NCBI RefSeq assembly: GCF_011064595.1
Contig: NZ_JAALJI010000006.1
Coordinates: 1 to 64,000 of the forward strand
Source of the DNA: Paludisphaera soli
GTDB taxonomy: Bacteria; Planctomycetota; Planctomycetia; Isosphaerales; Isosphaeraceae
Length of the DNA: 64,000 bases
Direction: 5' to 3'
Shown here: piece by piece, positions 48,087 through 50,710 of the stretch
Layout: each line of letters opens with the position of its first letter
How positions within the stretch are numbered: position 1 is the stretch's first letter
Program-made: the position numbers and the translations under genes
The notes under the pieces: model-generated
The model's database searches: none
What the model was told of the DNA's origin: nothing
What the model saw: the letters and a program-made list of their open reading frames with translations, nothing else

Positions 48087-48150
48087 GTCAAGAATCCTTG
48101 ACTCCGGGCGAATGTCAAATAGACTTGACGTGGTGTCAAGAATATTTGTC
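48087..48150 (+). promoter_or_regulatory. Three operator-like repeats upstream of membrane protein/HTH pair
   Basis: GTCAAG-AATC-CTTGAC (48087-48102, perfect), GTCAA-ATAGAC-TTGAC (48114-48129) and GTCAAG-AATA-TTTGTC (48135-48150, 4/6 in the right arm). They end 24 bases before the ATG at 48175. TTGACT (48099-48104) with TAGACT (48120-48125) could be a promoter overlapped by them. Self-repression by the HTH protein encoded downstream is the natural inference. Confidence 0.6.
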
Positions 48151-48174
48151 ATTGCCGCGAACAAGGAGGCCCTG

Positions 48175-48594
48175 ATGGGTGCGTCACTCGAGGAGAAAGG
48201 CGTGTGGCTCCAACTGGTCGCCACGGTGCTCGGGCTGGGGGCCTACTTCGTCGTCGCGGGGCTCATGCTCTCGGCGGGCGTCACGGCCCTGCCGGCCTAC
48301 GTGCCACTGTTCATCGTGACTGTCGTGATGATGGTGGCCCTGATGGTGGCCGGGTTCGTCGTGGCGGCGATTGCGAGCCGGCCCGAGGGACGGGACGAGC
48401 GCGACCGGCTGATCGGTTGGCGGGCCGAGAACAACTCGTCGTGGGTGCTCGCCGTGGGGGTGTTCGCCGCGATCACGGGCATGCTCTTCTCCATCAACAA
48501 CGTCTGGATCGCGCACCTGCTGCTGCTCTCGATGTTCCTGAGCGAAGTGCTGGGGCAGGTCCTCCGACTCGTCTACTACCGCCGGGGGGTCTAG
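48175..48594 (+). CDS. DUF2178-like four-helix membrane protein
   Basis: 139 residues with four hydrophobic helices (LVATVLGLGAYFVVAGLML, VPLFIVTVVMMVALMVAGFVVAAI, VLAVGVFAAITGMLF, HLLLLSMFLSEVLGQVL) and the family motif GRDERDRLIGWRAENNSSW between helices 2 and 3 (D-E-R-D-x-x-I). Start ATG 48175 with AAGGAGG upstream; the frame extends to 48046 but that part covers the operators. Followed 2 bases later by a small HTH regulator, an arrangement common for this family. Function of the membrane protein is unknown; related SdpI-type pairs give immunity or signal sensing. Confidence 0.8.
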   Translation: MGASLEEKGVWLQLVATVLGLGAYFVVAGLMLSAGVTALPAYVPLFIVTVVMMVALMVAGFVVAAIASRPEGRDERDRLIGWRAENNSSWVLAVGVFAAITGMLFSINNVWIAHLLLLSMFLSEVLGQVLRLVYYRRGV

Positions 48595-48596
48595 GG

Positions 48597-48821
48597 ATGG
48601 TCCCCGCCAAGGTGGTCATTCGGAATCAGATCCGGGCGCTCCGGTTCGAGAGCGGCGAGATGACCCAGCAGGATCTCGCCGATCGGATCGGCGTGAGCCG
48701 GCAGACGGTCAACGCGATCGAGGGCGGCAAGTACTCGCCGTCTCTGGAGGTGGCGTTCCGGGTCGCGCAGGTCTTCGACAAGCCCCTCGAGGCGGTCTTC
48801 CAGTGCCTCATGACGGAGTGA
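48597..48821 (+). CDS. Cro/CI-type HTH regulator
   Basis: 74 residues consisting of a single XRE helix-turn-helix: IRNQIRALRFESGEMTQQDLADRIGVSRQTVNAIEGGKYSPSLEVAFRVAQVFDKPLEAVFQ. This is the compact YozG-like type that accompanies DUF2178-like membrane proteins. Probably binds the GTCAAG-N4-CTTGAC repeats upstream of the pair. Starts 2 bases after the preceding stop. Confidence 0.92.
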   Translation: MVPAKVVIRNQIRALRFESGEMTQQDLADRIGVSRQTVNAIEGGKYSPSLEVAFRVAQVFDKPLEAVFQCLMTE

Positions 48822-49051: not shown

Positions 49052-50710
49052 ATGAGCCACCAAATCCCCCCCACCGATCGACGATCCGACCTGGACGCCC
49101 TGCGAGCCGGGGCCATGCTGCTGGGGATCGTCCTGCACGCGTCGCTCTCGTTCTTCCCGTCGTTCTGGATGGTCGCGGACCGCCGGCAGGAACCGGCGTT
49201 CGGGATCCTCTTCGCGGCGATCCACGGCTTCCGCATGCCGCTCTTCTTCGTCATGAGCGGCTTCTTCAGCGCCATGCTGCTGCAGCGTCGAGGACGGTTG
49301 GAGCTGGTGAAGCATCGATATCGGCGGGTGTTCCTCCCCTTGCTGCTGGGGATGGTCACGATCATCCCGCTCACGAACGCGATCTCGGGCCTCGCGATGT
49401 CGTCCGCACCCTCCGACGATCGCGGCGTGGCGACGCCGGGGGGCGGGGCCTCGACCCTCTGGGGCGCCGCGCGGGCGGGCGACCTTGACGCGATCGAGCG
49501 TCACCTGGCGGCCGGCGAGTCGGTGAACGCCGCCGACCCCGAACACGGCGGGACGGCCCTGCAGTGGGCTGCGGCCGCCGGCCGGGCCGAGGCGATCGAG
49601 CGCCTCATCGAGCGCGGCGCCGACGTGAACGCCACCGGCCGGGACGGCGGGACGGCCCTGCACGCCTCGGCGTTCCTGGGCCATGAACGGGCCGTCGAGG
49701 CGTTGATCCGCGGCGGCGCGGACGTCAACGCGGTCAACGGGAGCGGCGCCACGCCGCTGAGCGTGGCGAGCCTGGACGAGGGGACCACCCGCTACTTCGC
49801 CTCGCTCCTGCGGCTGGAACTCGACGAGGACGGGCTGGGGCGCCGCAAGGCCGCCATCGCGGAGGTCCTGCGGGCCCGCGGAGCGACGGCGGGCGCGCAG
49901 CCGGGACTGGCCGCGTTTCTGACGCAGATGCCCGTGTTCGGCCACCTCTGGTTCCTGTGGTTCCTCTGGTGGCTCGTGCTCGGCTATGCGGCCGTCTCGG
50001 CCCTCGCCGCGAGGCTGCCGACGGCCCGGCCGCCGGGCTGGCTCGTCCTCTCGCCCGCCCGCTACCTCTGGCTGGTCCCGCTGACGATGGTCCCGCAGGC
50101 GTTCATGGGCGGCGGCGACTCGCCGGGCTTCGGGCCGGACACCTCGACGAGCCTCCTGCCGATCCCGCAGGTCCTGGCCTATTACGCGATCTTCTTCGGC
50201 TTCGGGGCGCTCTATTTCGGGTTCGACGACCGGGAGGGGCGGGTCGGCGGTCGCTGGTGGGCCCCATTGGCGATCGGGCTCCTCGTGGTGCTGCCGCTGG
50301 GCCTGGCGCTCGCGGCGGGGTGGGACGGGCCGCCGGGCGTCGCGCTCGGGCCGCAGGCGCGACGGGGCCTGGCGATCTTCCTGCAGGCGGCCTATCCCTG
50401 GCTCCTGACGTTCGGGCTCATGGGGCTGTTCCGGCGGGCCTGCCCGGCGGAGAGCCCGGGGATGCGCTACCTGTCGGACTCGGCCTACTGGCTCTACCTC
50501 GCCCACCTGCCGCTGGTCGTGGCATTGCAGTATCTGGTGCGAGACTGGCCGATCCCGGCCGTCCTGAAGTTCGCGATCGTCGTCGCGGCGACGACCGGCC
50601 TCCTGTTGTGGAGCTACCGGGCCCTGGTGCGGTACACCTGGCTGGGCCGCTTCCTGAACGGCCCTCGCGTCCGGCCCGAGCCGGCGGCTACGCCCGCCGT
50701 CGTCGCCTGA
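49052..50710 (+). CDS. Acyltransferase-3 membrane protein with ankyrin repeats inserted in the membrane domain
   Basis: 552 residues. The N-terminal 115 residues are the first helices of an acyltransferase-3 (OafA/MdoC-type) enzyme: RRSDLDALRAGAMLLGIVLHASLSFFP with the conserved His29, then HGFRMPLFFVMSGFFSAMLLQRRG and KHRYRRVFLPLLLGMVTIIPL. Residues about 133-243 are three ankyrin repeats (GDLDAIERHLAAGESVNAADPEHGGTALQWAAAAG; RAEAIERLIERGADVNATGRDGGTALHASAFLG; HERAVEALIRGGADVNAVNGSGATPLSVASL). The remaining helices continue to MRYLSDSAYWLYLAHLPLVVALQYLV, the usual family ending. The reading frame is continuous, so this is a domain insertion. Likely O-acylates a surface glycan; the ankyrins may bind a partner. 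Confidence 0.85.
   Translation: MSHQIPPTDRRSDLDALRAGAMLLGIVLHASLSFFPSFWMVADRRQEPAFGILFAAIHGFRMPLFFVMSGFFSAMLLQRRGRLELVKHRYRRVFLPLLLGMVTIIPLTNAISGLAMSSAPSDDRGVATPGGGASTLWGAARAGDLDAIERHLAAGESVNAADPEHGGTALQWAAAAGRAEAIERLIERGADVNATGRDGGTALHASAFLGHERAVEALIRGGADVNAVNGSGATPLSVASLDEGTTRYFASLLRLELDEDGLGRRKAAIAEVLRARGATAGAQPGLAAFLTQMPVFGHLWFLWFLWWLVLGYAAVSALAARLPTARPPGWLVLSPARYLWLVPLTMVPQAFMGGGDSPGFGPDTSTSLLPIPQVLAYYAIFFGFGALYFGFDDREGRVGGRWWAPLAIGLLVVLPLGLALAAGWDGPPGVALGPQARRGLAIFLQAAYPWLLTFGLMGLFRRACPAESPGMRYLSDSAYWLYLAHLPLVVALQYLVRDWPIPAVLKFAIVVAATTGLLLWSYRALVRYTWLGRFLNGPRVRPEPAATPAVVA

Follow-up and report, generated by a model that had tools for sequence, protein, structure and literature searches.

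Acyltransferase-3 (AT3) proteins share a DxxRx10H motif (PMC9833829, PMC12423673) and have been grouped with OpgC-C and human HGSNAT in the TmAT superfamily (PMC12423673). In the published model of OafB, the loop between transmembrane helices (TMHs) 3 and 4 is re-entrant and blocks the acyl-CoA pore, moving aside in simulation, and the same work models the SGNH domain of this protein as a lid that closes onto the membrane part (PMC9833829). That extracytoplasmic domain, proposed as a lid in the AT3-SGNH enzymes OafB and OatA, is a C-terminal hydrolase placed after an 11th helix (PMC9833829, PMC9558356). Fusions of AT3 to C-terminal SGNH and alanine racemase domains are among those covered by a review of the family, which raises as open questions the route by which AT3 enzymes gain access to an acceptor and the possible need of stand-alone AT3 proteins for a partner on the outer side of the membrane (PMC9558356). 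Periplasmic ankyrin repeats that help an enzyme, in this case a catalase, are described for AnkB of Pseudomonas aeruginosa, as cited in PMC10294975; AnkB, likened here by its description, is a free-standing protein rather than an insert in a membrane enzyme. Neither PMC9558356 nor PMC12423673 mentions ankyrin in its main text. Our search, which covered openly accessible papers, found no description of an AT3 protein with ankyrin repeats. Automatic domain databases very probably list the architecture already.

Here we describe a gene of Paludisphaera soli in which an ankyrin domain lies inside an AT3 enzyme. It was found in a 64,000-nucleotide stretch of DNA (the window) from a genome assembly of 7.97 Mb in 197 contigs that is 99.97% complete. 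The gene content of the window and the nearest named loci indicate a planctomycete. The gene occupies positions 49052 to 50710 on the plus strand, as judged from the open reading frame, Pfam matches and same-genus homologues, and consists of a single stop-free frame from ATG to stop that encodes 552 residues. A Pfam scan detected Acyl_transf_3 (PF01757, 101.1 bits versus a cut-off of 31) in two stretches, the first at residues 13 to 134. Between them it placed Ank_2 (PF12796) at residues 136 to 228 (55.1 bits versus 27.3), with Ank_4 and Ank (PF00023) also above their cut-offs there; the ten AT3 matches above cut-off in the source genome include two that are the halves of this one gene. The continuous frame from AT3 through ankyrin and back to AT3 reported in the first-pass annotation was thus borne out, as was its conserved His29, which stands with D15 and R18 in the DxxRx10H motif. 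Taking the open reading frame, Pfam and a structural model together, the order is AT3 helices 1 to 3, the insert with its ankyrin repeats, and helices 4 to 10. The N-terminal AT3 part (residues 1 to 113, positions 49052 to 49390), delimited by conserved columns and modelled helices, comprises TMH1 with the DxxRx10H motif, TMH2, an RXXR motif (R89 and R92) and TMH3. The C-terminal AT3 part (residues 294 to 552, positions 49931 to 50707), supported by invariant columns and a separate model, begins with HLWFLWF at the start of TMH4 and continues through TMH5 to TMH10, with an SXXXY motif (S475 and Y479) in TMH9.

The closest characterized relative among those tested was OpgC (MdoC; E. coli b1047), the osmoregulated periplasmic glucan (OPG) succinyltransferase. 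The best NCBIfam match of the window protein was the glucan biosynthesis protein MdoC (NF003014), at 128.5 bits and below the cut-off of 338, and 18 of 18 ankyrin-free sisters matched MdoC as well. Profiles built from the two AT3 halves found E. coli OpgC at 6e-26 and 1.5e-9, a better score than that of the other AT3 proteins tried from the window's genome. OpgC has the same DxxRx10H motif and the same HLWFL at the start of TMH4 but, unlike the window protein, lacks ankyrin repeats and has a short helix 3-4 loop of about 27 residues. Its acceptor does not carry over readily to the new protein. MdoG (opgG/mdoG) was found in none of the 6 genomes of the genus and in 2 of 21 genomes overall, and only E. 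coli was positive among the 14 control genomes in that search; since the genus lacks MdoG, an OPG is an improbable acceptor here, and we regard this candidate as weakened. Among solved folds, the nearest to the C-terminal half was human HGSNAT (Z 5.7-5.8 and rmsd 5.6-5.8 over 191-204 residues), a match that we consider weak because Z is below 6 and it was seen only in the VIA comparison; HGSNAT has a luminal domain of its own and no ankyrin insert. Foldseek with the C-terminal half returned no match below E 0.001, a PDB sequence search with the ankyrin-free alignment returned none up to E 10, and structure searches with the whole model were filled by the ankyrin part. No SGNH family appeared in the Pfam scan of the protein, and the chain ends soon after TMH10 in the model. 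The window protein therefore differs from OafB and OatA in carrying its extra domain, an ankyrin one, in the helix 3-4 loop.

A contig scan with a first alignment yielded at least 508 relatives; the best 80 were examined, and 78 of these were aligned with the window protein to give an alignment of 79 proteins (effective number of sequences, ~58). All 79 match Acyl_transf_3 plus Ank_2, Ank_4 and Ank in Pfam. The insert, which comparison of loop lengths and a low K+R fraction of 0.09 place at residues 114 to 293 (positions 49391 to 49930, plus strand) in the predicted extracytoplasmic TMH3-TMH4 loop, is 159 to 236 residues long across the alignment, with a median of 183. Between the TMH3 core and the HLWFL of TMH4, 25 of the 26 ankyrin-free relatives have 16 to 52 residues and one, L036, has 80, whereas the window protein has 181 (residues 114 to 294) and the three other ankyrin-bearing proteins compared have 166 to 234. 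The motifs that flank the insert are common to the ankyrin-bearing and ankyrin-free groups. We concluded from the loop lengths and the shared flanking motifs that the insert replaces exactly the TMH3-TMH4 loop and that the enzyme is otherwise intact; the same order and the same boundary were kept in 79 of 79 aligned proteins.

The first-pass annotation had counted three repeats at about residues 133 to 243. We rejected that count, since solved four-repeat ankyrins align across model residues 135 to 279 or more, and replaced it with four repeats at about residues 134-166, 167-198, 199-231 and 232-280. Together they span residues 134 to 280 (positions 49451 to 49891, plus strand) according to Pfam, structural matches and the model, and the fourth is interrupted by about 20 extra residues that, from our reading of the sequence, sit between its helices. 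An AlphaFold2 model of the whole protein made with 79 sequences had a mean pLDDT of 92.5 and a pTM of 0.90. The ankyrin part was mostly at 85 to 98, residues 123 to 127, in the linker, were the sole stretch within the chain below 50, and a separate model of residues 291 to 552 reached a mean pLDDT of 88.9. In structural comparison of the model, four-repeat ankyrins and DARPins matched residues 135 to 282 at Z ~20, among them 2v5q_D (Z 20.3, 125 residues) and 1n0r (Z 20.1, 121 residues).

We propose that the protein is an active OpgC-like acyltransferase in which the outer gate loop has been replaced by an ankyrin lid serving as a dock for a periplasmic protein or for the acceptor, a reading that we give about an even chance of being right. 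Such an enzyme would bind acyl-CoA on the cytoplasmic side and deliver the acyl group, by way of a membrane pore, to an extracytoplasmic acceptor. The helix 3-4 loop, which has a pore-gating role in the OafB model, would have been exchanged, most likely once, for the four-repeat domain; this would cover the mouth of the pore like a lid and dock an extracytoplasmic partner protein or acceptor, and docking would be coupled to pore opening in a manner akin to the lid proposed for the OafB SGNH domain. The insert occupies the site of the putative AT3 gate, a role assigned to this loop by simulation of a different AT3 protein; for the window protein, pore gating and docking are inferred. The OafB SGNH lid would be the nearest functional parallel, with another domain at another position in the chain. 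More tentatively, the ankyrin domain could represent a second, separately evolved outside lid, such that opening of the pore depends on a docked periplasmic protein or glycan carrier, with transmembrane acyl transfer under external control in a subfamily found in at least eight phyla. A natural subfamily with a protein-binding domain in the pore-gating loop would offer a direct handle on the AT3 acceptor and partner questions, and its ankyrin repeats would belong to a membrane enzyme and lie on the extracytoplasmic side.

The alternative that survives best is that the ankyrin domain is structural only, stabilizing the enzyme or mediating oligomerization without binding an acceptor or an outside partner. 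Within the insert, conservation is highest at the scaffold positions of the repeats, and mean identity across the 79 proteins is 34% in the insert versus 55% in the membrane part, which does not indicate a single universal ligand; both observations fit a structural role. The same can be said of the gene neighbourhood, as no neighbour gene family conserved across phyla was found among the best 80 of at least 508 loci. This result also bears on the earlier suggestion that the insert recruits or senses a protein partner in the control of glycan acylation: the ankyrin domain inside the AT3 enzyme, on one membrane face and with an order and boundary shared by other genomes, was upheld, and the recruiting or sensing of a partner and a glycan acceptor stay at the level of suggestions. 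No neighbour conserved across phyla points to a partner. Set against a purely structural role, however, are positions kept in or just after the extra stretch of repeat 4 (D242 at 0.83, T246 at 0.76, A250 at 0.77 and R or K at 266 at 0.95 among the 79 proteins), and ankyrin repeats usually bind proteins. We regard the structural explanation as a serious possibility, though rather an unlikely one.

A different view would be that the AT3 part has lost its catalytic function and now only anchors the ankyrin domain in the membrane, and we know of no member of the subfamily with a demonstrated activity. The pattern of conservation argues against this. D15, R18 and H29 of the DxxRx10H motif in TMH1 are invariant in 79 of 79 proteins, as are S475 and Y479 of SXXXY in TMH9; of the RXXR motif at the cytoplasmic face of TMH3, R89 is invariant and R92 is kept in at least 90%. 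For the FXXXXXL motif of TMH2, F65 is invariant and six positions on the window protein has F71 rather than L, counted along its own sequence. Given the invariance of DxxRx10H, R89 and SXXXY, the AT3-ankyrin protein is most likely an active acyltransferase, and we consider a non-catalytic anchor very unlikely.

Ankyrin repeats are most often intracellular, and the topology could in principle be inverted, or the loop could point inwards, so that a cytoplasmic ankyrin domain controlled access of acyl-CoA. From the model helices and the charge pattern, the protein is predicted to have ten transmembrane helices with both ends in the cytoplasm. The K+R fraction across the 79 proteins is high at the N-terminus (0.34), in loops 2-3 (0.40), 4-5 (0.14), 6-7 (0.17) and 8-9 (0.20) and at the C-terminus (0.22), and low in loops 1-2 (0.05), 5-6 (0.01), 7-8 (0.11) and 9-10 (0.12) and in the insert. 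In the model, the RXXR motif of the cytoplasmic face precedes the insert and is separated from it by one helix, TMH3. One OatA topology study is described as at odds with the ten-helix model, but the same source also cites topologies of OafB and Oac in which the helix 3-4 loop is long and lies outside, in the periplasm, or within the membrane (PMC9833829). The earlier placing of the insert on one face of the membrane was therefore supported by structure and topology prediction, which put it between helix 3 and helix 4 on the extracytoplasmic side; this side is most likely the correct one, in view of the positive-inside pattern and the published topologies of relatives, and a cytoplasmic ankyrin domain appears highly improbable.

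The same domain order recurs well beyond the source genome. A search of 59 genomes, its own included, found full-length homologues in all 5 other genomes of the genus (65-74% identity) and in four further genomes (G025, G018, G017 and G055; 49-71% identity). Within the class, 41 of 198 genomes, and 37 of the 177 of good quality, gave a strong match (E 1e-100 or better), a few of the 41 being partial (e.g., G008, G092 and G119). The full-length order, defined as rows that cover model positions from about 4 to 536 or beyond, out of 546, was present in 38 of the 198, two of these 38 with one internal stop. Finished chromosomes with the same order include CP036526.1 and CP036432.1. By NCBI names, the best 80 of the at least 508 relatives comprise 43 from Planctomycetota, 19 from Verrucomicrobiota, 5 from Gemmatimonadota, 4 from Latescibacterota, 2 each from Acidobacteriota and Poribacteria, 1 each from Chloroflexota and Armatimonadota, and 3 without a phylum, so that eight phyla are named, some of the labels resting on single metagenome bins. 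An assembly error or a chance fusion of two genes, for which the 197 contigs of the source assembly might speak, is practically negligible and was rejected as far as sequence allows, since the order is repeated in every same-genus genome, in the class genomes with a strong match, in finished chromosomes and in eight named phyla. Thus, the arrangement represents a real, old enzyme subfamily. A phage origin was also rejected: a scan of viral contigs gave 123 pattern matches, with no relative among them.

A tree of the AT3 columns of 54 rows contained one branch that splits the ankyrin-bearing from the ankyrin-free proteins, with support of 100/99 and presence in 100% of 200 bootstrap trees. Long branches (L034, L035, L036 and L039) and ankyrin rows more than 62% identical had been left out, and the tree is unrooted, with ankyrin-free rows from the window's class only and ankyrin rows from many phyla. 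A preliminary tree, made quickly from 79 of the 119 rows, required two changes of the ankyrin label, because the ankyrin-free L034, on a very long branch (4.92), joined the ankyrin-bearing L091. Distances in the ankyrin part correlated with those in the membrane part (r 0.73) about as the two membrane halves did with each other (0.71), a value reached by none of 500 permutations. Taken together, the single-branch split and the correlated distances suggest that the ankyrin domain was most likely acquired or lost a single time and was otherwise inherited with the enzyme.

Several individual copies and relatives depart from the common form. One genome (G016) has several AT3-ankyrin copies on contigs C115, C41, C167, C153 and C196 (L022), at least two of them arranged in tandem and one, interrupted by several stops along the part that matches, apparently broken. 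In L020 and L117, the copy starts inside the ankyrin part and is preceded by unrelated sequence; this is probably a truncated or mis-assembled copy in a metagenome bin. Among ankyrin-free proteins, the AT3 protein at L036:460-1935 (minus strand) has an 80-residue stretch in the helix 3-4 loop that is Gly/Pro rich by eye, which suggests that this loop tolerates insertions. Another relative (L028:91-1857, plus strand) has a different soluble-looking insert, assigned no Pfam family, further along the chain. Two ankyrin-free AT3 proteins (L035:18-2066 and L038:793-2877, both minus strand) have long C-terminal extensions; that of L035 resembles a tyrosine/dual-specificity phosphatase by eye, Pfam giving AT3 only.

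Conservation of neighbouring genes was confined to taxon-limited groups. Among the 80 loci examined, 12, mostly planctomycetes by name, have an orthologous Ser/Thr kinase gene just upstream on the same strand (L083:3421-5818, L066:3246-5832 and 10 others). These kinases are 64-76% identical to that of L083, with a partial copy in L086, and have hydrophobic segments after the kinase domain that suggest a membrane-bound protein. An ECF sigma factor precedes the kinase in 7 of the 12 loci. The kinase stop codon lies 54 to 368 bases from the candidate AT3 ATG where one was found, and 3 of 11 loci examined had no candidate. The kinase/ECF linkage may reflect a possible operon and regulated expression in one planctomycete group. 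Sulfatases (8 loci) and a second gene family (7 loci) also recur as neighbours in the 80 loci; both are common in these bacteria. Upstream of the gene in the window, positions 48106 to 48821 (plus strand) hold a small membrane-protein-like frame to which Pfam assigns no family and, after it, an Xre-type HTH regulator, and elsewhere the window encodes DUF1559 with an N-methylation motif and PEP-CTERM.
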